Virus record (IMG/VR): IMGVR_UViG_3300044648_000011
Location: 1-51,000 of that record
Reading direction: 5' to 3' (one strand)
Length of the DNA stretch: 51,000 nucleotides
Source: a virus
Position 1 is the stretch's first letter, and each line of letters starts with the position of its first letter. A program made the position numbers and the translations under genes. Below, one piece after another: positions 5,236 through 51,000 of the stretch. The notes below the pieces were generated by a model. It was not told where the DNA came from and ran no database searches. It saw only the letters and a program-made list of their open reading frames with translations.

Positions 5236-5308
5236 GGGTGTGTAGCTCAGCGGCAGAGTGCGCCGGTTAGGGCGCGGGTCGAGGGTTCGAGTCCCTCCAC
5301 ATCCACCA
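5236..5308 (+). tRNA. tRNA with encoded CCA and shortened anticodon arm
   Basis: Acceptor GGGTGTG (5236-5242) pairs with CACATCC (5298-5304), discriminator A5305, encoded CCA 5306-5308. D-arm GCTC/GAGT with an AGCGGCA loop; T-arm GAGGG/CCCTC with the canonical loop TTCGAGT (5286-5292). The anticodon arm folds best as GCGCC/GGCGC with only six loop bases (GGTTAG, 5265-5270) and no base 26. A normal 7-base loop cannot be drawn without losing the stem, so the anticodon is ambiguous. It is the only tRNA-like gene in the + arm with an encoded CCA. Confidence 0.65.
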
Positions 5309-9291: not shown

Positions 9292-9674
9292 GCGACGATA
9301 ACAAGACGGTGCACGCTGACATCATCCTGACTCTCAAGGGTGGTCCGTACGACAAGACTCCGTTCATGGAGATGATCCATCACGGGAACGTGTCGGGCGA
9401 CGAGACTTCAGTTGACAGGCTGCGGCAGATCTCTTCCCTGCTGTTCGAGGCGGCATGGCTGATGGAAGACCAGGCCAACAAGTTCTCGGAATACGAAAGT
9501 CTTCGTGTCTTCGAGGACACGTCAGGCAACCAGTGGTTTGAGGTGAAGACAGACGTGTTCTACTGCGCTTCTGACCTCGAAGAGGCTCAGAGTCTGTTCG
9601 TGGCTGGTGCGCCCAACACCACCGAAAAGGCTTTGCGTGCGGTGAATGGCGATAAGCTGAAGGAGGTCAAGTGA
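9288..9674 (+). CDS. Hypothetical acidic protein, 128 aa
   Basis: ATG with GAAAGGGG upstream. It has an initial strand region (ADIILTLKGGPYD), a helix (LRQISSLLFEAAWLMEDQANK) and a following strand pair (WFEVKTDVFYC). It ends four bases into the RNA ligase gene, so translation is likely coupled. No family recognised. Confidence 0.6.
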   Translation: MSDDNKTVHADIILTLKGGPYDKTPFMEMIHHGNVSGDETSVDRLRQISSLLFEAAWLMEDQANKFSEYESLRVFEDTSGNQWFEVKTDVFYCASDLEEAQSLFVAGAPNTTEKALRAVNGDKLKEVK

Positions 9675-10339
9675 TTACCTTCGAGGCATGGCCTAAGACG
9701 CCAAGGCTTAACAACCGTGGGACTACGATCACCGAGAAGATCGATGGCACCAACGCTGCTGTAGTGATCATTCCTGTGAATGCGATCGAAGCATGGGGTC
9801 GGTTGTGCACCGACTACGGTGGCTTTGCCTGGGTGGATGATACAGTTCGTAAGGACATCACTTACGTGGTTGGTGCTCAGTCCCGTAAGCGATTGATTCG
9901 TCCCGGAGACGACAACGCAGGCTTTGCTACGTGGGTAAGCCAGAACGTAGACGAGTTGGTGGATCTGCTCGGCCCTGGTCGCCACTTTGGTGAGTGGTGG
10001 GGACAGGGTATCCAGCGTCGCTACGGCATGGATCGCAAGGTGTTCTCTCTGTTCAACACCCACAAGTGGGGTAAGATCGCCACAGAGCGTCTTGACTGGC
10101 ACAGTCGAGCCCGCGATATCAACATGTCAGTTGTACCTCTTCTCTGGGAGGGCAAGTTTTCGGATGTAGTGGTAGACATGAGCATCGGATCACTACGCCA
10201 GAACGGCTCTTACGCCGCTGCTGAGTGGGGCTTTGCCGGACAACCGGCAGAAGGCATCATTCTTCGGCATAGAGAACTTGGAGGCAATCTGAAGGTGCTT
10301 CTCGAAAACGATGATATCCCGAAAGGAGTAGCACGTTGA
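9671..10339 (+). CDS. RNA ligase, T4 Rnl2-like
   Basis: 222 residues from GTG. The nucleotidyltransferase motif I is EKIDGTNA, with the adenylated Lys at residue 23. A motif III region, FGEWWGQGIQRRYG (about 105-118), motif IV AEGIILRH (about 195-202) and a motif V-like LKVLLEND are in order. It is short, close to a minimal catalytic core without a large C-terminal domain. Rnl2-type enzymes seal 3-OH/5-phosphate RNA ends. A second ligase and a Pnkp are encoded downstream, suggesting a tRNA-repair set. Confidence 0.8.
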   Translation: MITFEAWPKTPRLNNRGTTITEKIDGTNAAVVIIPVNAIEAWGRLCTDYGGFAWVDDTVRKDITYVVGAQSRKRLIRPGDDNAGFATWVSQNVDELVDLLGPGRHFGEWWGQGIQRRYGMDRKVFSLFNTHKWGKIATERLDWHSRARDINMSVVPLLWEGKFSDVVVDMSIGSLRQNGSYAAAEWGFAGQPAEGIILRHRELGGNLKVLLENDDIPKGVAR

Positions 10340-23135: not shown

Positions 23136-23175
23136 CATGGACCGGTCCGGCCCTTTGGGGTCGGGCCTTTCCGGA
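23136..23175 (+). terminator. GC-rich intergenic hairpin
   Basis: GGCCC at 23151-23155 pairs with GGGCC at about 23163-23167, followed by TTT and flanked by CCGG and CCGG words. It resembles a weak intrinsic terminator or attenuator ahead of the RNA ligase gene, whose ribosome binding site (GAGAGGAAG) starts just after it. Confidence 0.35.
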
Positions 23176-23184
23176 GAGGAAGCT

Positions 23185-24249
23185 ATGAAGCTTAACCAGC
23201 TAATCAATCCAGACCTTATGCGTCGTATGCTCGAGGGTGGATTCATTCGCAAGCAGAAGCACCCGAGCCTGGATCTGTACATCTACAACTACAGCGAGAA
23301 GGCTCAGTTCTCCAAGATGTGGAATACAGCTACCCTGGCTTGTCGAGGACTGATCGTGGATGGCGAAGGCAACATCGTTGCTCGCCCCTTCCCCAAGTTC
23401 TTCAACTGGGAGGAACCTAAGCCTAAGGGCAAGAAGTTTCAGATGAGCCTAGACGAACCTGTCGTTGTCACAGACAAGATGGATGGATCTCTAGGTATCC
23501 TGTATCGGGCTGTGCCCGGATCGAAGACGGTAACTAGAATCGCCACGCGAGGAAGCTTCGAGAGCGAACAGGCTAAGCGAGGTACTGAGATCCTAGGTAC
23601 TAAATATTCACACTTCTATCCGCCTGATGGTTGGACCATGCTCTTCGAGATCATCTATCCGGAGAACCGTATTGTACTTGACTACGGCGACATGGAAGAC
23701 CTCGTATTGCTCGGAGGGGTAGACATCGAGAGTGGCACCATAGTCGGCCCTGAGAGCTTCCCTAGGTGGTTCGGCCCCAAGACTCAGACCTTCCCCTACA
23801 AGACTCTACGAGAGGCCCTTAGCGTGGCTCCTAGGCCGGGTAAAGAGGGTTTGGTAGTAAGGTCGCTCATGGATGATTTGATGATCAAGCTTAAGCAGGC
23901 TGACTACATAGAGCTGCACAAGATCGTAACCGGTCTGAACGAGCGTGTGATCTGGGAGCGGCTGTCTGAGGGACGAGACGCCTTCGAAGGCATCCCGGAT
24001 GAGTGGCACAAGTGGGTTCAAGAAGTCGCTGAACCGTTGCTGCAAGCTCATGGTGAGCTAAGGATGGCTGCCTGGGGCGAATGGCTTAAGGTTCGTCACC
24101 TAGTCAACAATCGTCGTGCTTTTGCGATGGCCGTCAAGGACTTGACACCGTGGCTCAAAACTGTTATGTTTCTCTGGGCAGACGGGAAGGACGCACATCC
24201 ATTCCTGTGGAAGCAGGTCAAGCCGAGAGGAGACAAGACGGATGGCTGA
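23185..24249 (+). CDS. RNA ligase, T4 Rnl1-like
   Basis: 354 residues from the ATG at 23185 (GAGAGGAAG upstream; upstream in-frame start rejected). The sequence TDKMDGSLG carries the adenylated Lys at residue 98, close to K99 of T4 Rnl1. An upstream LACRGLIVDG...RPFPKFFNWEE is the Rnl1 specific N-terminal motif. Later motifs include LFEIIYPENRI, VLLGGV and EGLVVRS, and IKLKQADY as motif V. Rnl1 reseals tRNA cut in the anticodon loop after end-healing by Pnkp. A Pnkp is encoded 600 bases downstream. Confidence 0.85.
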   Translation: MKLNQLINPDLMRRMLEGGFIRKQKHPSLDLYIYNYSEKAQFSKMWNTATLACRGLIVDGEGNIVARPFPKFFNWEEPKPKGKKFQMSLDEPVVVTDKMDGSLGILYRAVPGSKTVTRIATRGSFESEQAKRGTEILGTKYSHFYPPDGWTMLFEIIYPENRIVLDYGDMEDLVLLGGVDIESGTIVGPESFPRWFGPKTQTFPYKTLREALSVAPRPGKEGLVVRSLMDDLMIKLKQADYIELHKIVTGLNERVIWERLSEGRDAFEGIPDEWHKWVQEVAEPLLQAHGELRMAAWGEWLKVRHLVNNRRAFAMAVKDLTPWLKTVMFLWADGKDAHPFLWKQVKPRGDKTDG

Positions 24250-24726: not shown

Positions 24727-24880
24727 CAAAAAGAATCGTCGTAAGGGTGACAACGACTCGGACAAGACCGTGCGTATACAACCAGTTAAGAAGGTCGTAG
24801 AAGAGTGGTTCAGCGACGAGAAGGATGGAACTGAACCGCCTACGGGTAAGCGAAAGAAGAATGGGGAGGAAAAGAAATGA
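24719..24880 (+). CDS. Small basic protein, 53 aa
   Basis: ATG in the end of the previous gene; stop overlaps the Pnkp start by four bases. Highly charged with Lys/Arg clusters at both ends and a VVEEWFSDEKDG centre. No fold evident. Confidence 0.5.
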   Translation: MSDKKNRRKGDNDSDKTVRIQPVKKVVEEWFSDEKDGTEPPTGKRKKNGEEKK

Positions 24881-25785
24881 GTGGTACGCTCGTAATCTTT
24901 CGAGGGTTGCCGGCTAGTGGTAAGACAACTCGAGCTAAGCTTTTGCGGGCAAGCTCTGGAGGTCGTCTCGTCGGTCGTGACCATCTGCGTGTGATCCTAG
25001 GTGCTGAAGGGCTCGGAACACCAAAGCAAGAAGCCGAGGTGACTGCGCTTCAGGATCGTCTCATCGCTCAAGGCTTGCAGAATGACGAGTACGTATACGT
25101 CGATGATCAGAACCTGAAATCAGTGTATGTGTCTCGGCTGATTGGCCTTGCCCAGAAGTACAACGCCTTCTACGTGATTGAGGACATGACTTTCCTGGAC
25201 GTTGTGACCTGTCTAGAGCGCAACGAAGGTCGGGAACGTAGGGTCCCGGCTGAGCTGATCGTTACCAACTACGAAAAGTATGTCAAGGGTAAGACATACC
25301 CCCTTCCCGTCCCTAAGGGAAAGCTAAGCTCTCCGTATCTTCCTCCTGAGCCTTATGTTCCTCCTACAGGAGGCATCAAAGCTGTGTTGGTGGACGTAGA
25401 CGGCACAGTAGCTGACCACACGGGGATTCGAGGGCATCACGAGTACGACAAAGTTGGTCTAGACCTTCCCAAGTACGATGTCATCAAGATGGTTCGGGCG
25501 GCATTGGAAGCTGGATACACGCCAATCTTCCTGTCCGGTCGTCCCGAGAAGTCTCGATACGATACCCGACAGTGGTTGAACAGGCATGTGACTACAGCAG
25601 GATCTCTGCTGATGCGTCAGGACGGCGACCACCGGGCTGATTACATCGTCAAGAAGGAACTGTTCGACGAGTACGTTCGGAACACCTACCGTGTAGCGGT
25701 AGCTTTCGACGATCGCAATCAGGTGGTTGACATGTACCGAGAGATGGGTCTTACGGTTCTCCAAGTCGCTGAAGGGAACTTCTGA
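24877..25785 (+). CDS. Polynucleotide kinase-phosphatase (T4 Pnkp-like)
   Basis: 302 residues. The kinase P-loop GLPASGKTT (10-18) begins the protein, with VGRDHLRVILG as the next motif and a central Arg-rich lid (NEGRERRVP). From about residue 165, a HAD phosphatase domain follows: AVLVDVDGTVADH (DxD about 172-174), then FLSGRPEKSRYD and a terminal FDDRNQVVDMYRE. This is the kinase-then-phosphatase order of T4 Pnkp, which heals 5-OH and 2,3-cyclic-phosphate RNA ends before ligation. It overlaps its neighbours at both ends. Confidence 0.85.
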   Translation: MSGTLVIFRGLPASGKTTRAKLLRASSGGRLVGRDHLRVILGAEGLGTPKQEAEVTALQDRLIAQGLQNDEYVYVDDQNLKSVYVSRLIGLAQKYNAFYVIEDMTFLDVVTCLERNEGRERRVPAELIVTNYEKYVKGKTYPLPVPKGKLSSPYLPPEPYVPPTGGIKAVLVDVDGTVADHTGIRGHHEYDKVGLDLPKYDVIKMVRAALEAGYTPIFLSGRPEKSRYDTRQWLNRHVTTAGSLLMRQDGDHRADYIVKKELFDEYVRNTYRVAVAFDDRNQVVDMYREMGLTVLQVAEGNF

Positions 25786-42605: not shown

Positions 42606-44020
42606 TCGTCACGTCCCTCCGGTAGTTGAGTTCTTCCTGTTACGGGAGGTCCGTACAGCTCTGCTAGCCTGCCACGCGGACTGTTCTTATCCATCTTCTC
42701 CATCTCTTCACGTTCACCAATGGAGAAGTTGAGCTTGATTCGAGCCATCTCGACAGGGATAACAGCGCGTCCGTCAGGAGTGATAGCCGTAGCTAGCTTA
42801 ACTACCGCGTCAGCCATTGCAGCAAACGTCGGAGTGGCCGGGTTACGCCATACCGTTTCCATTCGGAATGCGTCTGTAGGAATCGTTCCGTCCATTACCT
42901 TAAGGGCAATGCGCATTACCATTTCCCACGCTTCGCCGAACATTCGACACTTGCGTTCAGCCTTTTTGACTAGTCGATCTTCGCTGGCACGAATAGCGTC
43001 AGCAGAAGCCGGATTGTCAGACGAGAAGCTGAAGTACTGGGGAGGGAGACCGGTGTAACCCGACGCTTCCTTACGAAGCATCTCCATTCCTTCACCGAAG
43101 TTACGAAGTTCAGCCGCAGCAAACTGCGAGATCTTACCGTCTGGATCTTCGAAAGCTAGAAGATTAGCAATGTAAGCTTCCCACGAAGATTCTCCGGTTT
43201 GACCCATGATCTCGGCACGATCCACACCAAAGATAACTCGCTGTGGAATGGCCATCAGCTCAGCAGTAGCCTGCATATTCATCATGAGGCGGGACGCCGC
43301 GTCGCTAACACTTCGTAGTTCTGGCTTGATCTCGGAGCAACCATCCTGCTGTTCAATGCGTTCCTTATTAAGGATCGGAACCACAGGGACAATGCCCAGA
43401 TTATGATCTACTCGCCATTCTTCAATCCACCCGTTGTTGTTTCCAACACGGTTACTTTCTACGTAACCAATGGTAGAATTAGGAAGATAAAGAGTGATCT
43501 TTCGAACCTTGACTGTGGTAACACCAACAGGAACGTTGTAAACACGAATAGCTCGAGTAACTCGCCCCGATACCGGATCAACTTCAGCATACATTGATCG
43601 AGGAGACTCAACCTTGATCACCGGAGTGGTCGGATCCATCAAAGGATCGTTAGGATTAGGGGCCGCGATCGTCACATAAGCCCGGCCATGAACCAAAGCT
43701 TCGGTGTGAGCCAGCCCGGACTCGACGTCCATACGGTTAGCCTGCCACCACTGCCACAGTCGGTCATCCGCCTTGGACTTACCGGCTAGAATGAACCCTT
43801 CGATGTCTAGACGCTCTTCAAGGCTGCCTAGATACGTACGGGACCACCCAATTTGAGCTAGAAGATGCTTCATCGCGGGTGGAACGGCTAGACCAACCGC
43901 CTTTGGGCGATACGTGCCGTTGTAATACGCGTTATTGACCTTAAGCTCGCTTGCGTCCCTTCCAAACTTGCCTAGAAGGTATTCGATCTGCTCGGCATTA
44001 CTCTGGACAGGTGCTGTCAT
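42602..44020 (-). CDS. Portal protein
   Basis: 472 residues from the ATG at 44020 (ATGA overlap with terminase; longer start rejected). Typical SPP1-like portal features: YYNGTYRPKAVGLAVPPAMKHLLAQIGW near the start, a wing with strand pairs (VGVTTVKVRKITLYLPN), and the stem helix region (RKEASGYTGLPPQYF...). Twelve copies would form the packaging ring. Confidence 0.85.
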   Translation of the reverse strand: MTAPVQSNAEQIEYLLGKFGRDASELKVNNAYYNGTYRPKAVGLAVPPAMKHLLAQIGWSRTYLGSLEERLDIEGFILAGKSKADDRLWQWWQANRMDVESGLAHTEALVHGRAYVTIAAPNPNDPLMDPTTPVIKVESPRSMYAEVDPVSGRVTRAIRVYNVPVGVTTVKVRKITLYLPNSTIGYVESNRVGNNNGWIEEWRVDHNLGIVPVVPILNKERIEQQDGCSEIKPELRSVSDAASRLMMNMQATAELMAIPQRVIFGVDRAEIMGQTGESSWEAYIANLLAFEDPDGKISQFAAAELRNFGEGMEMLRKEASGYTGLPPQYFSFSSDNPASADAIRASEDRLVKKAERKCRMFGEAWEMVMRIALKVMDGTIPTDAFRMETVWRNPATPTFAAMADAVVKLATAITPDGRAVIPVEMARIKLNFSIGEREEMEKMDKNSPRGRLAELYGPPVTGRTQLPEGRDE

Positions 44021-45705
44021 CGGAATACGGCCACCTTTCCAGTGCGATTCTTCTTGTTCATAAGGTACTCCTGCCTTCCAGCGAAGGCGAGGACTGCGCA
44101 AACAGCCGCATCGATCTTGCGTGAACTGTCTTTGCTCGCCTTACGAATACTGATTGCGTCGTAAGTGGTTGGGTTTCTATGTGCATTCAAGACGTGCTGC
44201 CTCAGAATCGCCGATCCATTATGAGAAACAGCTCCTTCAAGTACAGCATCGTTAAGCTTTTCACAGTCAAGTGCAAATCGCTTAGTCTGACCACGCATAT
44301 CGAATGCAATCAGGTTGTTCGGAGATGCCTTAACCTTAAGCTTCTTCTTATACTGCCTGCTCCAGGCGTCTACATACGATTCGAACTCCTTGACATCCGC
44401 CCGGAATGCCACTACGTTGAATCGAGAGAAGACCCAATGAACAGTAGCGTCGACATCTTCTCGCGGGATTTCACCGCCGTACTTCTCGGGATCCCACACC
44501 TTGATCGGGACAAGAAGACCGTCATCGATACGACATGCCACTAGGGCCGTGAAGTCGCCGGACTTTGATCCGTCGAATCCAAGGCTGATCGTGTCGCCAG
44601 GTTCTAGCGTGACATCCTTAAGAATACGATCCCACTCGTGAGGGGCGATCCAAGCATCCTCAGCCGCGTTAATGTGGTTGAGGAACTTACGTCGAGACTC
44701 TGAGATGGGGTTGTTGATGTCTAGGATCGATCCTACGATGGTATCGATGTCTAGCCAGTATGCATCCCCTCGAGCGGTCGTCAGACCGTCCTTGAGCATC
44801 TTGAGGCCCAACTCAAAGCCTTCTGGGTCCACGTCCTCGGATGGGATCTCCGAAACTGGAGTTTCAGCCGGAGCCTCGAGCGCATCATAAAGAATACCTG
44901 TATCTACAGCGCCCTTAGTCTGCACCGCGATGTAGGAATCCCACATGCGCTCGCCGATGGAGTTTCGTCCTGGGACGTGCGCATTGCAGATAGCCAGGTA
45001 ACGAGCCACACCCATGCGAGACTTCGTGATGTTACCTTCAACGACGCCGTACATAGCGTGACCATCGTTAGTTTCGATCCACTCCTGGATTTCGTTAAGG
45101 ATTACGAATGTGGGACGACCACCTTCCAGAGTTGCTGGAGAGGAGGTTACGCCTTCGATTAGCCCGCCCGAACCATCAGTAGAGTGGATAATAGTCTTAT
45201 TAATATCAAGCTTAAATTCTTCCTTAAGCTTAGGGCTAACCATGCTAGGGAAAAGCTTAAGCGTGTTACCCGTCTGAGTCTGCGATACCGCAGCAATCTG
45301 AATCCACGGAGCCTTTACACGCTTCCCAACGGGCCGAAGACCTTCCCAGTGACTGAACCGAGCAGGGCCACATAGTTCGACGAGTGCCAGCGCGGCACAC
45401 ATCGGGTCCTTACCCCACCCCTTCATTCGCCTTAGCACACCATTACGGTACGCAAAACGGCCCAGCTCGTCTACGGCATACCACCATAGAATGAACCGGG
45501 CCTGTTCTGAAGTTGGAATGAATGGGTCATCGTCATTATCTCCGCCTGGAGACCGTACATACTCGGCTAGCCAGTCTAAAATCCCCCAACCTAGACTCGC
45601 CTTGGGAAGATGCCAGCGTCCGTCTCGACGACGACGCCATGTAGGGCCTATTACGTGCGCGGGTGCAGGCTTAAGGTCCGATAGGCGGACCAGGGTGTCC
45701 ACCAT
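44017..45705 (-). CDS. Terminase large subunit
   Basis: 562 residues. ATPase Walker A is the degenerate RRMKGWGKDP (92-101), Walker B PTFVILNEIQEW (about 197-208). The RNase H-like nuclease part has LGFDGSKSGDFTALV (about 385-399) with catalytic Asp, and a later DAAVCAVLAFAG. Unusually, it is separated from the small subunit by the tRNA array. GAGGTGT-type spacing before the ATG fits translation. Confidence 0.9.
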   Translation of the reverse strand: MVDTLVRLSDLKPAPAHVIGPTWRRRRDGRWHLPKASLGWGILDWLAEYVRSPGGDNDDDPFIPTSEQARFILWWYAVDELGRFAYRNGVLRRMKGWGKDPMCAALALVELCGPARFSHWEGLRPVGKRVKAPWIQIAAVSQTQTGNTLKLFPSMVSPKLKEEFKLDINKTIIHSTDGSGGLIEGVTSSPATLEGGRPTFVILNEIQEWIETNDGHAMYGVVEGNITKSRMGVARYLAICNAHVPGRNSIGERMWDSYIAVQTKGAVDTGILYDALEAPAETPVSEIPSEDVDPEGFELGLKMLKDGLTTARGDAYWLDIDTIVGSILDINNPISESRRKFLNHINAAEDAWIAPHEWDRILKDVTLEPGDTISLGFDGSKSGDFTALVACRIDDGLLVPIKVWDPEKYGGEIPREDVDATVHWVFSRFNVVAFRADVKEFESYVDAWSRQYKKKLKVKASPNNLIAFDMRGQTKRFALDCEKLNDAVLEGAVSHNGSAILRQHVLNAHRNPTTYDAISIRKASKDSSRKIDAAVCAVLAFAGRQEYLMNKKNRTGKVAVFR

Positions 45706-45919: not shown

Positions 45920-45931
45920 TTCGTGTCTATG

Positions 45932-46003
45932 TGCACCTGGCAGGACTCGAACCTGCGTCTCCGACTTAAGAGGACGGAGCTAAACCATCTCAGCTACAAG
46001 TGC
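45932..46003 (-). tRNA. tRNA-Lys(CTT)
   Basis: Acceptor GCACTTG/CAGGTGC, D-arm GCT/AGC, anticodon loop CTCTTAA giving CTT, T-loop TTCGAGT, discriminator A. The anticodon stem has one T-T mismatch. Reads AAG codons, which dominate this phage's genes. Confidence 0.9.
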
Positions 46004-46004
46004 G

Positions 46005-46079
46005 TAGGTCTGGAAGGATTTGAACCTTCGGTCTCTTCGTTATCAGCGAAGTGCTTTTACCGGACTAAGCTACAAACCT
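46005..46079 (-). tRNA. tRNA-Ile(GAT)
   Basis: Acceptor AGGTTTG/CAGACCT, anticodon stem CTTCG/CGAAG with loop CTGATAA giving GAT, T-arm GAAGG/CCTTC with loop TTCAAAT, discriminator A. One base separates it from tRNA-Lys. Confidence 0.9.
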
Positions 46080-46080
46080 A

Positions 46081-46157
46081 TGGTGGAGCCTGCGGGGATC
46101 GAACCCGCCGCCTCTTCCTTGCAAGGGAAGCGCTCTTCCTAAATGAGCTAAGACCCC
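46081..46157 (-). tRNA. tRNA-Ala(TGC)
   Basis: Acceptor GGGGTCT/AGGCTCC, anticodon stem CTTCC/GGAAG with loop CTTGCAA giving TGC, T-arm GCGGG/CCCGC with loop TTCGATC, discriminator A, CCA encoded. Confidence 0.9.
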
Positions 46158-46159
46158 GG

Positions 46160-46230
46160 AGCCTCTGGTAGGAATCGAACCCACGTCACCTGTTTACAAG
46201 ACAGGAGCTAAGCCACTCAGCTACAAAGGC
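46160..46230 (-). tRNA. tRNA-Thr(TGT)
   Basis: Acceptor GCCTTTG/CAGAGGC, anticodon stem CCTGT/ACAGG with loop CTTGTAA giving TGT, T-arm GTGGG/CCTAC with loop TTCGATT, discriminator T. Confidence 0.9.
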
Positions 46231-46234
46231 AATG

Positions 46235-46306
46235 CTGCCCATCAAGGATTCGAACCTCAAACAATTGGTTCAGAGCCAACCGTGTTGCCAATTACACCAA
46301 TGGGCA
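46235..46306 (-). tRNA. tRNA-Gln(CTG)
   Basis: Acceptor TGCCCAT/ATGGGCA, anticodon stem GTTGG/CCAAT with loop CTCTGAA giving CTG, T-loop TTCGAAT on a weak stem, discriminator G. Reads CAG codons. Confidence 0.88.
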
Positions 46307-46310
46307 TTAC

Positions 46311-46359
46311 GAGCCAGCCCCGGTCAATGGAAATTCCAAAGGCACTGAGGCAGACTGGC
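46311..46359 (-). ncRNA. Small stem-closed RNA element inside the tRNA array
   Basis: GAGCCAG at 46311-46317 and CTGGCTC at about 46353-46359 are perfect complements, 7 bp like an acceptor stem, closing about 35 bases without a T-loop. A TGGAAATTCCA word lies inside. It may be a decayed tRNA or a spacer structure for processing. Confidence 0.35.
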
Positions 46360-46364
46360 TCTCG

Positions 46365-46437
46365 ACCCCCTGACAGGACTCGAACCTGCACGTGAACGCT
46401 TAGAAGGCGTCTGATCTTCCAATTGAACTACAAGGGG
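46365..46437 (-). tRNA. tRNA-Arg(TCT)
   Basis: Acceptor CCCCTTG/CAGGGGG, anticodon stem GACGC/GCGTT with loop CTTCTAA giving TCT, T-loop TTCGAGT. Discriminator reads T, and the D-stem has a mismatch. Confidence 0.85.
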
Positions 46438-46438
46438 A

Positions 46439-46523
46439 TGGCAGCGGATAAAGGTATTGATCCCTCGAGTGTAACCCCGGCCTGGTTTTCAAGACCAGTT
46501 TGTGCACCTGCACGCTATCCGCT
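46439..46523 (-). tRNA. tRNA-Ser(TGA)
   Basis: Class II tRNA of 85 bases. Acceptor AGCGGAT/ATCCGCT, D-arm GTGC/GCAC, anticodon stem CTGGT/ACCAG with loop CTTGAAA giving TGA, long variable arm, T-loop ATCAATA (not TTC), discriminator G and encoded CCA. Confidence 0.8.
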
Positions 46524-46527
46524 CTAG

Positions 46528-46600
46528 CACCCCTAACAGGATTCGAACCTGCGACAACCCACGTTCGTAGCGTGGCGCTCTTCCACTGAGCTATAGGGGA
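46528..46600 (-). tRNA. tRNA-Arg(ACG)
   Basis: Anticodon stem CCACG/CGTGG with loop CTACGAA giving ACG, T-arm GCAGG/CCTGT with loop TTCGAAT. Acceptor pairs 2-7 only; 1-72 is a T-T mismatch, discriminator G. Confidence 0.88.
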
Positions 46601-46669
46601 TTGTGTCGGAGTTCAGCACCCACCCTCATGCCCTCAACGGACAATCGTGGTACCCGACTCGGGTTCTCG

Positions 46670-46738
46670 TCCTGCCGGGAGGGATCGAACCTCCTACAGT
46701 AGCGGTTTACAGCCGCGCTGCTCTCCAAGAGCGTCAGG
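46670..46738 (-). tRNA. tRNA-Tyr(GTA)
   Basis: Acceptor CCTGACG/CGGCAGG with one mismatch, D-arm GCTC/GAGC, anticodon loop CTGTAAA giving GTA on a GCGG/CCGC stem, T-arm GGAGG/CCTCC with loop TTCGATC. Short variable loop, unlike the long arm of most bacterial tRNA-Tyr. Confidence 0.78.
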
Positions 46739-46740
46739 AT

Positions 46741-46754
46741 GGGTCTTTCGACCC
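46741..46754 (-). other. GNRA-type hairpin
   Basis: GGGTC-GAAA-GACCC on the minus strand, a GNRA tetraloop hairpin, between the small gene at 46761 and tRNA-Tyr. Probably a processing or stability element. Confidence 0.4.
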
Positions 46755-46760
46755 TATGGA

Positions 46761-46976
46761 CTAGAATACATCTTCTGGCTTGGCAATAGCACGTACAAAG
46801 AACATAAAGCCCTCTTGCAGATGCGTCTTGGCTAGAGCCATCGAACGCTTGTCGATATCGTCAAACTGAGCAAATTCTCGCCATAGTTGACCGACCTGCT
46901 TCTCCATGTCCTTGACACGATTCATGTCGGCTACATCATCTTCGCTTAGTTCGCGATAACCCTTAACGTCAGGCAT
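46761..46976 (-). CDS. Small helical protein inside the tRNA array
   Basis: 71 residues from the ATG at 46976, with GAAAGG upstream; longer in-frame start rejected as it runs through the tRNA-Phe gene. A charged, mostly helical protein (ELSEDDVADMNRVKDMEKQVGQLWREFAQF, LAKTHLQEGFMFFVRAIAK). It may be a minor RNA-binding or regulatory protein. Not recognised. Confidence 0.6.
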   Translation of the reverse strand: MPDVKGYRELSEDDVADMNRVKDMEKQVGQLWREFAQFDDIDKRSMALAKTHLQEGFMFFVRAIAKPEDVF

Positions 46977-47008
46977 CCTCGACCTTTCGTAGTTTATAAT
47001 ACCTTGCG

Positions 47009-47080
47009 TGGAATCTACAGGGTTCGAACCTATGCGCACCGGGCTTCAACCGGTTGCTCTACCCACTGAGCTAAGATTCC
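47009..47080 (-). tRNA. tRNA-Phe(GAA)
   Basis: Acceptor GGAATCT/AGATTCC, D-arm GCTC/GAGC, anticodon stem ACCGG/CCGGT with loop TTGAAGC giving GAA, T-loop TTCGAAC, discriminator A. First tRNA upstream of the small gene. Confidence 0.92.
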
Positions 47081-47152
47081 ATAAGCAGACACCGCATTCG
47101 ATCCTAAATGCTCATTTAATCAAGGCTCGGAACGTCCCTGAAGTGCCTTACG

Positions 47153-47236
47153 AGGAAGATAAAGGAATCGAACCCTTAGGCTTTCACCTAGTACTAGCTT
47201 AGCACGCTAGTTGCCAACCAATAGGCACTATCTTCC
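47153..47236 (-). tRNA. tRNA-Ser(GCT)
   Basis: Class II. Acceptor GGAAGAT/ATCTTCC, D-stem TGCC/GGCA, anticodon stem CTAGC/GCTAG with loop GTGCTAA giving GCT, long variable arm (TAGG/CCTA), T-loop TTCGATT. Discriminator T instead of the usual G. Confidence 0.85.
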
Positions 47237-47238
47237 GG

Positions 47239-47312
47239 GGTGACTGGAGGGTATCGCACCCTCTTCCATCGGATTCACAGTCCAATAAACTCACTTTTCG
47301 TATCTCAGTCAC
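47239..47312 (-). tRNA. tRNA-His(GTG), odd D-arm
   Basis: Acceptor GTGACTG/CAGTCAC, anticodon stem TTGGA/TCCGA with loop CTGTGAA giving GTG, T-loop TGCGATA, discriminator C as expected for His. Base -1 is T rather than the normal G-1, and the D-loop lacks the GG pair. Likely functional only if G-1 is added or tolerated. Confidence 0.72.
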
Positions 47313-47314
47313 AG

Positions 47315-47386
47315 TCCCTTCACAAGGATTCGAACCTTGGACCCGCTGCTTGTAGGGCAGCCGCTCTTCCGCTGAGCTATAAAGGG
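47315..47386 (-). tRNA. tRNA-Val(TAC), C at position 33
   Basis: Acceptor CCCTTTA/TGAAGGG, D-arm GCTC/GAGC, anticodon stem GCTGC/GCAGC with loop CCTACAA giving TAC, T-arm CAAGG/CCTTG with loop TTCGAAT, discriminator A. Base 33 is C instead of the near-universal U. Confidence 0.85.
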
Positions 47387-47387
47387 G

Positions 47388-47460
47388 TAGCTCTCCCGGG
47401 ATTCGAACCCGGACTGAACAGTTTCTAAGACTGTTGCCTCTCCCGTTGGGCTAGAGAGCC
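47388..47460 (-). tRNA. tRNA-Leu(TAG) with short variable loop
   Basis: Acceptor GGCTCTC/GAGAGCT, D-arm GCC/GGC, anticodon stem ACAGT/ACTGT with loop CTTAGAA giving TAG, T-arm CCGGG/CCCGG with loop TTCGAAT, discriminator A. Leu tRNAs are class II in bacteria, but here the variable loop is five bases. Confidence 0.82.
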
Positions 47461-47463
47461 ATA

Positions 47464-47500
47464 TGGATTACAGGCACTTTCATGTCAGCCTGCTTATCCA
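47464..47500 (-). other. Stable hairpin between tRNAs
   Basis: Nested stems TGGAT/ATCCA (47464-47468, 47496-47500) and CAGGC/GCCTG (47471-47475, 47488-47492) in the gap between tRNA-Leu and tRNA-Trp. Possibly a processing signal. Confidence 0.4.
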
Positions 47501-47501
47501 G

Positions 47502-47572
47502 CACCGATAGAAGGATTCGAACCTTCGCGGACCGGTTTTGGAGACCAGCCGACACATCCAGCGCTTATCGAT
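47502..47572 (-). tRNA. tRNA-Trp(CCA)
   Basis: Acceptor ATCGATA/TATCGGT, anticodon stem CTGGT/ACCGG with loop CTCCAAA giving CCA, T-arm GAAGG/CCTTC with loop TTCGAAT, discriminator G. The D-arm is irregular. Confidence 0.8.
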
Positions 47573-47608
47573 AAGAGGAGTCAACATTGCCTAGGATATC
47601 AACTCCAG

Positions 47609-47682
47609 TAGCGGGAGTGAGATTTGAACTCACGACCTTAGGCTTATGAGGCCCACGCGCTAGCCTACTGCGCCATCCCGCT
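47609..47682 (-). tRNA. tRNA-Met(CAT) (elongator-type)
   Basis: Acceptor AGCGGGA/TCCCGCT fully paired, which argues against an initiator; D-arm GCGC/GCGC, anticodon stem TGGGC/GCCTA with loop CTCATAA giving CAT, T-arm GTGAG/CTCAC with loop TTCAAAT, discriminator A. A CAT anticodon could also be a lysidine-modified Ile tRNA; sequence alone cannot say. Confidence 0.82.
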
Positions 47683-47684
47683 AG

Positions 47685-47717
47685 AGTATCCAGGTGGTAG
47701 CGAGGTACCTGGATACT
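47685..47717 (-). other. Perfect 11-bp hairpin downstream of CDS
   Basis: AGTATCCAGGT (47685-47695)/ACCTGGATACT (47707-47717) with an 11-base loop. Lies just after the 47730-47861 gene on the minus strand; may stabilise or end that transcript segment before tRNA-Met. Confidence 0.5.
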
Positions 47718-47729
47718 GGTCTGTTATGC

Positions 47730-47861
47730 TCACGGTTGTCCGTACAACTCGCGATACATCTCCCGAACCTCGTGTCGGTCATGTCCTTCTGCGTTCGGCA
47801 CATGCGGCCTGCGCGATTGATCAGCCAACCTGTCCGCGTATCGTTCAACTTCAGTAAGCAT
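47730..47861 (-). CDS. Small charged protein, 43 aa
   Basis: ATG at 47861 with GAGAGG upstream, ending TGA at 47730. Charged and His/Arg-rich (LTEVERYADRLADQSRRPHV, GHDRHEVREMYRELYG). Too short for confident fold assignment; found by reading the sequence between the DUF7448-like gene and the hairpin. Confidence 0.55.
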   Translation of the reverse strand: MLTEVERYADRLADQSRRPHVPNAEGHDRHEVREMYRELYGQP

Positions 47862-47871
47862 ATCTAACCTC

Positions 47872-48309
47872 TCAACTCGTGCTTAGCAGATCATCCGTCA
47901 GTTCGGGCAATGTATCCGTGATGTTGTTCATTACTCGATCAGCGTCCGTTGCGTACATCCAACCACCGTAATACCCATTCGAGTCGTTCCGGAAACTAAA
48001 GACCGAAGTCTGTTCACCCCACATGTCCGATTCAGTGAAGATTTGGAATCCGTAGCAACGGGTTACGTCGTAGTCGTTTTTCTCGTCTTCGCCGAGATCT
48101 ACTTCTTTGACCGAAATTACCGGTCCGTTCTCCAAGAGCTTCTTGACTCCGTGGAAATCATAAAAGTAGCTGTGCGAGCAACAGTCACCTTCGACTGTGA
48201 AGGCAAAACGTCCTTCGTCCGTCTCGAAGACCAAGTATTCGTCGTTCATAAAGACACGCTCGATGACCTTGCCAACCAAATTCCCTAGGCCGTTGTCTGA
48301 ACTCCACAT
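47872..48309 (-). CDS. DUF7448-like protein
   Basis: 145 residues. VIERVFMNDEYLVFETDEGRFAFTVEGDCCSHSYFYDF is typical of the DUF7448 family found in phages and bacteria; the rest is acidic (DLGEDEKNDYDV). Function unknown. GAGAGGAGAG precedes the ATG. It is one of three protein genes among the tRNAs. Confidence 0.7.
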   Translation of the reverse strand: MWSSDNGLGNLVGKVIERVFMNDEYLVFETDEGRFAFTVEGDCCSHSYFYDFHGVKKLLENGPVISVKEVDLGEDEKNDYDVTRCYGFQIFTESDMWGEQTSVFSFRNDSNGYYGGWMYATDADRVMNNITDTLPELTDDLLSTS

Positions 48310-48358
48310 GATCTTCTCTCCTCTCTACGTTAGAGGCAGCAGCGTACCACCGCCCACG

Positions 48359-48430
48359 CGCACCGAACGGGATTCGAACCCGCGTCTCCCAAGTTGACAA
48401 CCTGGTGCTCTACCGCTGAGCTATCCGTGC
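48359..48430 (-). tRNA. tRNA-Asp(GTC)
   Basis: Acceptor GCACGGA/TCGGTGC with one mismatch, D-arm GCTC/GAGC, anticodon stem CCAGG/CTTGG with loop TTGTCAA giving GTC, T-arm GCGGG/CCCGT with loop TTCGAAT, discriminator G. Confidence 0.88.
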
Positions 48431-48434
48431 TTGA

Positions 48435-48538
48435 TAAGACCATACTACACGACGACCCGACTTGTGCACAAGCCTCTCGCGCCCCTTCCCCACATCCGTA
48501 TTCACCCTAAAGGATGACAACAACCTCGTATGGTCTTA
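48435..48538 (-). ncRNA. Stem-closed RNA element between Asp and Asn tRNAs
   Basis: TAAGACCATAC (48435-48445) is perfectly complementary to GTATGGTCTTA (48528-48538), 11 bp, enclosing about 82 bases with a palindrome CTTGTGCACAAG. No T-loop or reading frame is present. Unrecognised; could be a structured RNA. Confidence 0.45.
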
Positions 48539-48540
48539 CG

Positions 48541-48614
48541 CTGGCTAGACAGGACTCGAACCTGTAACAACCGGGTTAACAGCCCGGCTCCCCTGCCGAT
48601 GGGGACTCTAACCA
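48541..48614 (-). tRNA. tRNA-Asn(GTT)
   Basis: Acceptor TGGTTAG/CTAGCCA, D-stem TCCCC/GGGGA with a GG loop, anticodon stem CCGGG/CCCGG with loop CTGTTAA giving GTT, T-arm ACAGG/CCTGT with loop TTCGAGT, discriminator G. Confidence 0.85.
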
Positions 48615-48618
48615 TGAA

Positions 48619-48642
48619 GGTCAGCCGTATTAGGGTCTGACC
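48619..48642 (-). other. Intergenic hairpin
   Basis: GGTCAG and CTGACC pair around a 12-base loop, in the spacer between tRNA-Asn and tRNA-Pro. Possible processing element. Confidence 0.3.
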
Positions 48643-48689
48643 CTGTCGACTCCTTCCACAAGAAGTTAATCTTGCACAGGTGGCCGTCG

Positions 48690-48760
48690 TCAGGCCACGA
48701 GGAATTGAACCTCGTCCGCTTCATTCCAAATGAACCATGCAACCACTACACCATGGCCTG
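48690..48760 (-). tRNA. tRNA-Pro(TGG)
   Basis: Acceptor CAGGCCA/TGGCCTG, D-arm GTG/CAT, anticodon stem TTCA/TGAA with loop TTTGGAA giving TGG, T-arm CGAGG/CCTCG with loop TTCAATT, discriminator A. Confidence 0.85.
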
Positions 48761-48795
48761 GCAACGCTAGTCGCGGTGGTCGATCACACCATCCC

Positions 48796-48877
48796 ACTAG
48801 CTCTGGGCACCTTGAGAATTCAAGTCTCGTCTTACGTCCTTAGGATGCACGCCCTAAGGAACCCAGCTAAAGCTAGT
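48796..48877 (-). ncRNA. Multi-hairpin RNA element in the tRNA array
   Basis: Outer stem ACTAGCT/AGCTAGT (48796-48802, 48871-48877) and CTGGG/CCCAG next to it enclose hairpins CTTGA/TCAAG (48811-48824) and CCTTAGG/CCTAAGG (48838-48859). The latter has an 8-base loop that reads GCGTGCAT on the minus strand. tRNA-sized but with no T-loop or normal anticodon arm. I tested a tRNA-Cys reading (GCA in the loop) and could not make it fit. Confidence 0.4.
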
Positions 48878-48917
48878 CACAGTTTCACTGCCGTGAGGCA
48901 GGCTTTCTGCAACCGCG

Positions 48918-48989
48918 AGCGTTATACAGGATTCGAACCTGCTCCGTCTGGTTGGAAGCCAGACATGCTACCGTTAACACCAATAACGC
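48918..48989 (-). tRNA. tRNA-Gly(TCC)
   Basis: Acceptor GCGTTAT/ATAACGC, anticodon stem TCTGG/CCAGA with loop CTTCCAA giving TCC, T-arm GCAGG/CCTGT with loop TTCGAAT, discriminator T, as usual for Gly. Confidence 0.88.
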
Positions 48990-48992
48990 AAG

Positions 48993-49071
48993 GGGCCGGT
49001 CCGGAAGATTCGAACTCCCGATTCTCCCAATTGTGAGGGATTTTCTTCTGCCTGAACAAAGATTACCAGCC
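48993..49071 (-). tRNA. tRNA-like gene with aberrant anticodon arm
   Basis: Acceptor GGCTGGT (5-prime end 49071) pairs with ACCGGCC; D-arm TCTT/AAGA with GG in its loop; T-arm GGGAG/CTTCC with loop TTCGAAT, followed by two extra G. The anticodon arm only gives TCCC/GGGA with an 8-base loop, so the anticodon is not readable (loop contains CAC and CAA). Lies between tRNA-Gly and tRNA-Glu. Confidence 0.5.
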
Positions 49072-49075
49072 TTTG

Positions 49076-49147
49076 TACTCCGTACGGGGATCGAACCCGT
49101 GCTTCCAGGGTGAAAACCTGGCGTGCTTACCATTACACCAACCGAGC
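49076..49147 (-). tRNA. tRNA-Glu(TTC)
   Basis: Acceptor GCTCGGT/ACGGAGT with one mismatch, D-arm GTG/CAC, anticodon stem CCAGG/CCTGG with loop TTTTCAC giving TTC, T-arm ACGGG/CCCGT with loop TTCGATC, discriminator A. First tRNA after the promoter. Confidence 0.88.
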
Positions 49148-49378
49148 AAACCGCCTCTGCCGAGATTCATACTGCCGGTCGTTACGAAGCGGTAGATCTT
49201 GTGAGTAGAACTCTACATCGTGTCTGGAGTCTTGTCAACCCCTGGATCTGATTAAGTTTTGGAGCCCTCCTCGCAGTCCGGGCCGAAGCCTATGGCAAGG
49301 TTACTCGTGCGGGCACATCACACGGTTGGGTTTGCCTCCGAAGAGGCCACTAGGGTGGAGAGGGCACCCTAGGCAAAG
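49148..49378. other. Promoter region of the tRNA array
   Basis: No gene. It holds the promoter at 49210-49238 and, toward the right, nested inverted repeats: TTTGCCT/AGGCAAA (49331-49337, 49371-49377) and CTAGGGTG/CACCCTAG (49350-49357, 49365-49372). Confidence 0.55.
49210..49238 (-). promoter_or_regulatory. Promoter for the tRNA array
   Basis: On the minus strand: TTGACA (49233-49238), 17-base spacer, TAGAGT (49210-49215). The -35 matches the bacterial consensus exactly. Transcription would start near 49203, 56 bases before tRNA-Glu. Confidence 0.75.
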
Positions 49379-49582: not shown

Positions 49583-49728
49583 CGCTTCCTTTCGGGCAAG
49601 ACCTTTCGTCCAGGCCCGATGCAATGACCTACAACACCTCGGATCTTGTTGTCGTGCTCTTCGATCTTCCCTGAGCTTAACACATCAACCTGGTTATGGC
49701 AAATCGGACATCTGTACTTCCGAGCCAC
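49579..49728 (-). CDS. Small zinc-finger protein, 49 aa
   Basis: GTG at 49728 (GGAGG upstream), overlapping the small terminase stop by one base, and ATGA overlap with the next gene. CPICHN (7-12), H25 and HC (35-36) suggest a zinc site. Not obvious from longer-frame searches because of its size. Confidence 0.55.
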   Translation of the reverse strand: MARKYRCPICHNQVDVLSSGKIEEHDNKIRGVVGHCIGPGRKVLPERKR

Positions 49729-50180
49729 TAGTTAGCCTCCCGTTGCTTCTCGAACAGCTCTTCGAAGCGCTGAGCAGCATTAATGACCTTGCCAGTAGCT
49801 TCGTTTCGCTGTACTTCTACCTTGACCCTACGACGATCGCCTTCAGTGAGTAGTAGTTTGCTCATCATCGCGTCGATCGTTGACAGAAGCATAGCAGACA
49901 TCTTCGAAGAAAACAACATGTTGTTCAGAGCGTACATCGTGATTCGTGCATACTCCCAGTCAGAAGGTTCCCAAAACCTGGTTTGACCTGAGTTAGGAAG
50001 GCTGTCCCATAGATCTTGAATGAGTGGATGCGTTTCAACGCCCAAGTCAAGAGACGGGATCTCTACATCGCCGATCATCCGAACTGTTTCCGTCACTAGA
50101 CCATCTTCTCCGGTCTTGTTACGACGTACTCGTTCTGACGGGTGCTTACCAATCGGTCCGGGCTTACCAAGTCCTGGCAT
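49728..50180 (-). CDS. Terminase small subunit (likely)
   Basis: 150 residues from the ATG at 50180, with AGGAGG upstream. N-terminal GKPGPIGKHPSERVRRNK, then a helical region ETHPLIQDLWDSLPNSGQTRFWEPSDWEYARITMYALNNML, characteristic of actinophage small terminases, and a helical C-terminus. It would recognise the packaging site. The large subunit is 4 kb away, past the tRNA array. Confidence 0.75.
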   Translation of the reverse strand: MPGLGKPGPIGKHPSERVRRNKTGEDGLVTETVRMIGDVEIPSLDLGVETHPLIQDLWDSLPNSGQTRFWEPSDWEYARITMYALNNMLFSSKMSAMLLSTIDAMMSKLLLTEGDRRRVKVEVQRNEATGKVINAAQRFEELFEKQREAN

Positions 50181-50218
50181 TTTAGCCTCCTGGGCTTTAG
50201 ACACCTCCTGGGTGTCGA

Positions 50219-50524
50219 TCATCGCAGACCGGGGTGTCTCCCAGTCGGTCGTTTTCTTAACATCTTGAGTCTCGCCTTGGCATTATTGCCTTCGCGGGAA
50301 CTTTTCTTAGCATGACATCGCTCACATACAGCTTGCAAATTCGAAAATCGATGATCATCGCCTCTTACTATATGATCTACTTCAGTAGCTTGAATCTGAC
50401 AACCATCATCGATAATTTTACAAGTATACTTATCTCTTTTTAGTATTTTAGGAACAATATAAGTTTCCCAGTCTTTAGGAAGACGTTCCTTCCTAGTAGA
50501 AGTAGACCAAGTCACTATAATCAT
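50219..50524 (-). CDS. HNH endonuclease
   Basis: 101 residues. The HNH core is clear: CKIIDDGCQIQATEVDHIVRGDDHRFSNLQAVCERCHAKK gives C-x6-C...VDHI...N...C-x2-CH. The ATG at 50524 is directly against AGG, so the GTG at 50515 may be the real start. Such genes near terminases often help cut DNA for packaging; homing is also possible. Confidence 0.8.
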   Translation of the reverse strand: MIIVTWSTSTRKERLPKDWETYIVPKILKRDKYTCKIIDDGCQIQATEVDHIVRGDDHRFSNLQAVCERCHAKKSSREGNNAKARLKMLRKRPTGRHPGLR

Positions 50525-51000
50525 CCTTAGTTATATCTATGTTATCTAAGTAGTTAGAAGGTCTCTTGAAGTCTCTCATATGTTAATACATGTCCACAAG
50601 AGTAGTCTGTGGTCGTCTGAGACCAGATTGTGACGTAGTTCACACTCATACCAACATGATAAGTGTAGGTGGTCCGGTAGGGCTGGTAATGGTCCCTTAC
50701 GACGCGACGCTGTGACCTGCATGTTTACCTGTTGATCAAGTATATTACCACTTGGCTATATACGCTGGTCAGAGCGTTCTAGACCAATGTTGATTACAGT
50801 TGCTTTTATGGTCTATCACCTCAACGTAGTCTTCGCAGGTAGAGAGATCGAAGTATGTCCACACTTGCAGATTGGTCTAGTAAATTGGTCTATTCTAGTA
50901 GAGCCATCGTTGTAGCGATTGATATAGCGGAATGACACGGGGGTATGCGTATTTTGGGCTTAGATCAGCTCCCTATCCCGTACGTAACCTCGAAACCGCA
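50525..51000. other. Right-end non-coding region with repeated motifs
   Basis: No gene is seen. ATTGGTCTA occurs at 50871-50879 and 50884-50892 and inverted (TAGACCAAT) at 50780-50788. TCTAGTA repeats at 50876-50882 and about 50894-50900. GCTATATACGC (50755-50765) and TGACCTGC (50713-50720) match words at the left end. These could be operator, promoter or replication sites. Confidence 0.5.

Follow-up and report, generated by a model that had tools for sequence, protein, structure and literature searches.

A near-complete tRNA array between the terminase genes of a Cluster A-like soil virus, and its possible role in translation under tRNA depletion

The window analysed here is a stretch of 51,000 bases from a soil virus of actinobacteria (IMG/VR record IMGVR_UViG_3300044648_000011, positions 1 to 51,000), in which a dense array of transfer RNA (tRNA) genes lies between the genes for the small (terS) and large (terL) terminase subunits. 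A first-pass annotation, made from the letters alone, had counted in this interval 21 tRNAs for 19 amino acids, with Cys absent, and both the count and the position are borne out. ARAGORN alone recognizes 19 minus-strand tRNAs at 45931-49147, Rfam adds those for His and Ser(TGA), and the flanking genes are recognized as terS (PF25673) and terL (phrog_9). With isotypes called from the anticodon, the order in the direction of transcription is Glu, Gly, Pro, Asn, Asp, Met, Trp, Leu, Val, His, Ser(GCT), Phe, Tyr, Arg(ACG), Ser(TGA), Arg(TCT), Gln, Thr, Ala, Ile, Lys; Arg and Ser are each covered twice. The density is 6.5 tRNAs/kb (21 genes in 3.2 kb). In a gene-by-gene check all 21 were found to have a T stem of 5 base pairs (bp), an anticodon loop of 7 nucleotides (nt) and 4-5 paired positions in the anticodon stem, and the CCA end is encoded only in the Ala gene. 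The tRNA-Sec model that detects tRNA-Ser(TGA) also picks up the other serine tRNA of the array. The features of the window are collected in Table 1.

Table 1. Features of the array, its surroundings and the RNA-repair genes in the window (ORF, open reading frame; aa, amino acids).
Feature	Coordinates	Strand	Remarks
tRNA array	45931..49147	minus	21 tRNA genes, 19 amino acids; ARAGORN and Rfam
tRNA-Ser(TGA)	46442..46524	minus	missed by ARAGORN; one supporting match, sub-gathering, to the long-arm tRNA-Sec model (34.6 bits); 5-bp anticodon stem, 7-nt loop, 5-bp T stem; odd T loop ATCAATA
acb2-like gene	46761..46976	minus	71 aa, between Phe and Tyr; cyclic-nucleotide sponge family
tRNA-His(GTG)	47239..47312	minus	missed by ARAGORN; Rfam 38.3 bits, above gathering; unusual T loop TGCGATA
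ORF within array	47872..48309	minus	145 aa; DUF7448 (PF24240), function unknown
Asn-Asp spacer RNA	48431..48539	minus	9-10 bp terminal helix; conserved GAGGTTG, GGAYGTGGG, CGTGTA
Gly-Pro spacer	48761..48916	minus	strong predicted fold; core resembles that of L002
Decayed tRNA-like element	48990..49074	minus	between Glu and Gly; acceptor and T arm intact; anticodon arm with 8-nt loop, unusable
Promoter-like TTGACA-17-TAGAGT	49210..49238	minus	63 nt upstream of first tRNA
terL	44017..45705	minus	phrog_9, 6e-93
terS	49728..50222	minus	PF25673, 9e-35
HNH endonuclease	50219..50524	minus	first gene of arm; profile matches
Second RNA ligase	9671..10339	plus	PF09414
RNA ligase 1 (Rnl1)	23137..24249	plus	T4 Rnl1 family; PF09511, 56 bits
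Polynucleotide kinase-phosphatase (PNKP)	24877..25785	plus	AAA_33, 37.2 bits; HAD_PNKP, PF25109, 148.7 bits

The set is economical: there is one tRNA per codon box, with U34 in all four-codon boxes except Arg CGN, where A34 is found. Under superwobble rules the array reads 53 of the 61 codons, corresponding to 95.4% of the codons of the phage (96.2% in the minus-strand genes), and under strict wobble 68% of the phage codons are readable. With one tRNA per box and a reach of 53 codons, the set therefore resembles a replacement of the tRNA pool and not a supplement for a few rare codons. Bacterial initiator tRNAs have a mismatch at the start of the acceptor stem; the acceptor stem of the array Met-CAT opens with a paired A-T and is without this mismatch.

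The array could be compared with that of another contig, L002, whose only close match is the window. Identity between the two is 98-99% in the HNH, terS and terL genes and 94-96% in the two ORFs within the array, and coding changes are mainly synonymous (28 to 1 in terL). The L002 array has gained a Leu-CAA, its tRNA-Gln has been replaced beside an HNH-like ORF, several spacers differ, the decayed element between Glu and Gly has been replaced, and the acb2-like gene is kept. With Gln excluded, 14 pairs of the tRNA stems changed on both sides, 8 on one side and 0 were broken, although broken pairs are under-counted because both sequences went into deriving the structure. The HNH-like ORF beside the replaced tRNA-Gln (about 4970-5303 of L002) suggests movement of a homing endonuclease inside the array.

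Away from the array, the window encodes both Rnl1 and the kinase and phosphatase domains of PNKP. All 10 array records that are 45 kb or longer have this pair, against 0 of 44 records of such length with at most 3 tRNAs near terL (Fisher 4e-11, for rows that are related and not independent). The array records are the window, L004, L070, L074, L117, L120, L125, L131, L151 and L152; L117 was counted with four ARAGORN genes, L004 with three, as its array reaches the contig end and one further cloverleaf was found, and the cut-off between array and no array was chosen after the data were seen. Among the first 30 records searched, the second RNA ligase occurs in the window, L004, L070, L074 and L075 and in none of the array-free records.

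In the terL tree the arrays fall into two separate clades. The first contains the window, L002, L004-L006 and L018 and adjoins L003; the second (clade II) contains L070, L074, L117, L120, L125, L131, L151 and L152 and adjoins L059 and L132. The neighbouring lineages, L003 and L059/L132, have neither array nor Rnl1. The tRNA sets of the two clades are similar, the gene order different. ARAGORN counts in these and other IMG/VR relatives are 13 for L006/L007, 16-17 for L070-L075, 16 for L120, 13 for L122/L125/L126 and 10 for L151/L152; among the best matches, cultured phage records match at most 8% of the array at the DNA level.

The acb2-like gene enclosed by the array is assigned by concordant searches: its product matches PF24729 with 64.7 bits (cut-off 27) and the sequence of Acb2 in the PDB with 4.5e-8, and its AlphaFold2 model (mean predicted local distance difference test score 85) superposes on 8h2x with a template-modelling score of 0.79. 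The top eight Foldseek matches of the model are all Acb2 or Vs.4. Residues aligned with Y11 and K26 of Acb2, which we take to matter for binding, are present in the protein. A member of the Acb2 family is also found, elsewhere in the genome, in 8 of the 9 other array genomes. The other assigned ORF of the array belongs to a family, DUF7448, whose relatives are encoded at other genomic positions in Cluster A phages. A PADLOC scan returned nothing of note.

By its terminase and left-arm gene order the window is of the Cluster A type. Its terL is about 64% identical to that of Cluster A and related actinophages, and the order HNH, terS-position gene, 4-kb interval, terL, portal, protease is shared with the Cluster A phages MyraDee, which matches fully, and Anthony, which matches except for a second gene that carries no name. 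PHROGs labels the terS family as minor tail protein, despite the PF25673 match. Since no match to PF00589, PF00239 or PF13614 (integrase, ParA) was found in the window, we call it Cluster A-like and not a temperate Cluster A member. Sites similar to CTTGACAGCCACC, used as the stoperator pattern, number 20 with at most 3 mismatches against 15 expected, which is not above chance, and the pattern may differ in this lineage. Both contigs, the window (at position 51000) and L002 (at position 1), start from one and the same base, a hint that this is a true genome end.

It had also been proposed that terS and terL are normally adjacent or nearly so and are separated by the array; this does not hold for the lineage, as the two genes lie about 4 kb apart in array-free relatives as well. 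The interval is 4.0 kb in the window, filled with tRNAs and small ORFs, and 3.9 kb in MyraDee, with tail, lysin and holin genes and no tRNA. Because many relatives hold 1-3 tRNAs upstream of terL (Anthony has two in the interval), the site of the array is ordinary for the lineage; what stands out is how large the set is. Cluster A mycobacteriophages such as MyraDee and Anthony differ from the window in that this interval houses genes for tail, lysin and holin proteins with no more than a few tRNAs, and Rnl1 was found in none of those searched.

Taken at the level of sequence, these features are best read as a module that would replace and repair tRNAs in the face of a tRNA-depleting defence, with a sponge gene embedded in it. 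We consider it somewhat probable that the near-complete and economical set sustains phage translation while host tRNAs are cut or depleted, alongside RNA repair and an Acb2-type sponge. The threat to the host pool would most likely be anticodon nucleases of the host or some different tRNA-depleting defence. The promoter-like site would drive transcription of the whole array as a single unit, and host synthetases would charge the tRNAs; Rnl1 and PNKP, if active as their families suggest, could reseal cut tRNAs, and the sponge would blunt cyclic-nucleotide defence signalling such as that of CBASS. L002, L006 and L004 have promoter-like sites in a similar place, at a distance of 63-81 nt upstream; their count across the region is not above that in shuffled sequence, so that the support lies in the recurrent placement. 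The earlier suggestion that the phage could translate after host tRNAs are destroyed or limiting thus survives in part: it fits the Acb2-type gene, the repair enzymes that track the arrays, the lack of an integrase and the kept tRNA pairing, but the set cannot fully replace the host pool, because Cys, an initiator tRNA and readers of several codons are missing.

Several observations weigh against this interpretation. Besides the missing Cys tRNA, the array has no initiator tRNA and is for this reason not autonomous, and under the rules used there is no reader for AAA, CAA, CGG, TTA/TTG, ATA and TGY. The T loops of tRNA-His and tRNA-Ser(TGA) are unusual, and the Leu and Tyr genes are without the long variable arm that bacteria usually have; the Leu tRNAs listed from the loci are all 73-78 nt long, and the annotated Leu genes of phage Rey, at 75-76 nt, are equally short. 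The association of repair genes with arrays would amount to about two independent events, and phage CrystalP has Rnl and Pnk with two tRNAs (PMC5511906), so that an array is no prerequisite for the repair genes. Genes of the Acb2 family are also present in eight of the array-free relatives searched, and in clade II they lie outside the array. An exclusive genome-wide link between Acb2 and arrays was considered and rejected, as the family also occurs in array-free relatives.

The most widely accepted explanation of phage tRNAs is codon supplementation (PMC10264068), in which the tRNAs speed phage translation where codon usage differs from that of the host, with no tRNA damage involved. The genome has 52% G+C, and its preference for AAG and CAG fits the Lys-CTT and Gln-CTG of the array. 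Nearly all codon boxes are covered once, however, instead of a few mismatched codons, and the repair genes track the arrays, so we regard supplementation as an unlikely account of the set as a whole. Another possibility is that shutdown or degradation of the host's translation RNAs is the work of the phage, which restores its own supply through the array, with no host defence involved. This would need a near-complete set, and the repair enzymes also fit; among the proteins scanned, many of which have no known function, neither a phage tRNase nor a gene for host shutoff was recognized, and we consider this scenario improbable. If the terS-terL interval were simply an insertion hot spot for tRNAs, HNH genes and small ORFs, neutral or selfish accretion with little benefit overall could be invoked. 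The gain of Leu-CAA and the replaced Gln in L002, the decayed elements and the 1-3 tRNAs of many relatives are what such accretion would produce, but pairing in the tRNAs is kept through changes on both sides, the isotypes are spread over nearly all boxes, and similar sets have been reached by two clades in different gene order, so that accretion appears very improbable as the main explanation. Finally, integration into a host tRNA gene that is then replaced by a phage copy is known in several actinobacteriophage groups (PMC10865867), but a single cognate tRNA would suffice for it, and since no tyrosine or serine integrase match was found in 10 of 10 array genomes (the window and nine others), with a serine recombinase present in 3 of 3 array-free relatives, we give this lysogenic role hardly any credence.

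The replacement and repair reading can be placed beside known systems. Phage T4 is similar in that the Rnl1 and Pnkp families of its tRNA repair are both present in the window, and differs in having only eight tRNAs against 21. The mycobacteriophage Rey (Cluster M) also has a single block of 21 tRNAs, all on the same strand, with an annotated RtcB-like RNA ligase close by; it differs in covering all 20 amino acids, Cys included, in having a transfer-messenger RNA (tmRNA) in the block and RtcB in place of Rnl1 and Pnkp, and in belonging to the Vilmaviridae (84 kb), and no terminase gene is annotated within the 12 kb read around its tRNA block. The arrays of about 33 tRNAs in mycobacteriophage cluster C1 have been read as evasion of anticodon nucleases (PMC10264068), and are thus large actinobacteriophage arrays with the same proposed role; Ser(NGA) tRNAs are rare in the mycobacteriophages of that study, whereas the array of the window has Ser(TGA). 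Shigella phage Sf14, a myovirus of enterobacteria, is similar in having a near-complete set short of one amino acid, with 26 tRNAs for 19 amino acids (PMC12482277). In Streptomyces phage pSt2308 (L173 1-1249) an annotated Ro-like RNA-binding protein adjoins a tRNA block.

Each of the three elements (arrays, repair enzymes located near arrays, Acb2) was already known; the new part lies in finding them together in this lineage and in the repeated pairing of the array with the two repair enzymes in two clades. With regard to the question of why phages carry near-complete tRNA sets, two clades here pair arrays with the same repair enzymes beside relatives that have neither, and a gene for an anti-defence protein of a recognized type lies within one of the arrays. 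The general idea can in this way be turned into specific tests of the array and the repair pair against anticodon nucleases.

The spacers of the array may also carry structured RNAs. End-to-end pairing is predicted in 7 of the 8 window spacers of 33-130 nt, against an expected 0.30 (p 0.001); in the other clade the signal is weak (0.36 against 0.28 expected). In the window, L002 and L006 the terminal helix of the Asn-Asp RNA persists while its bases differ. For this comparison the helix was located by a script that took the conserved words as anchors, because MAFFT misaligned the three RNAs. A pattern scan for this RNA gave 9 stretches, of which the six beyond L002 and L006/L007 have no ARAGORN tRNA and look like chance. 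Hairpin motif A was found in 13 sequences of relatives, with its core preset by the search pattern; ten other loci of hairpin motif C, outside the family and with no tRNA nearby, look like chance. In the arrays of L070, L071, L073, L074 and L120 hairpin motifs recur in spacers at differing array positions. A search of Rfam 15 gave no match for these spacers. Mycobacterial arrays have already been reported to contain tmRNA and also a structured RNA about 430 nt long (PMC5966550), so that the presence of such RNAs in an array is in itself no novelty. We tentatively entertain, as a possibility that we do not favour, that the array is a mixed RNA operon, whose non-tRNA RNAs could serve as processing or insulating elements of the tRNA precursor or have an anti-defence role of their own.

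Degenerate cloverleaves were also considered as dedicated decoys; only scattered cases that resemble decay were found, and the idea is retained as a minor possibility. The decayed element between Glu and Gly has no Rfam match at E<=1. Near the left end of the window a tRNA-like acceptor stem and T arm are found at 1066-1141 on the plus strand, with no match to an Rfam family. A tRNA-like gene at 5236-5308 on the same strand, to which ARAGORN gives no isotype and which has partial matches only in the relatives searched, combines intact acceptor and T arms and an encoded CCA with a 6-nt anticodon loop.

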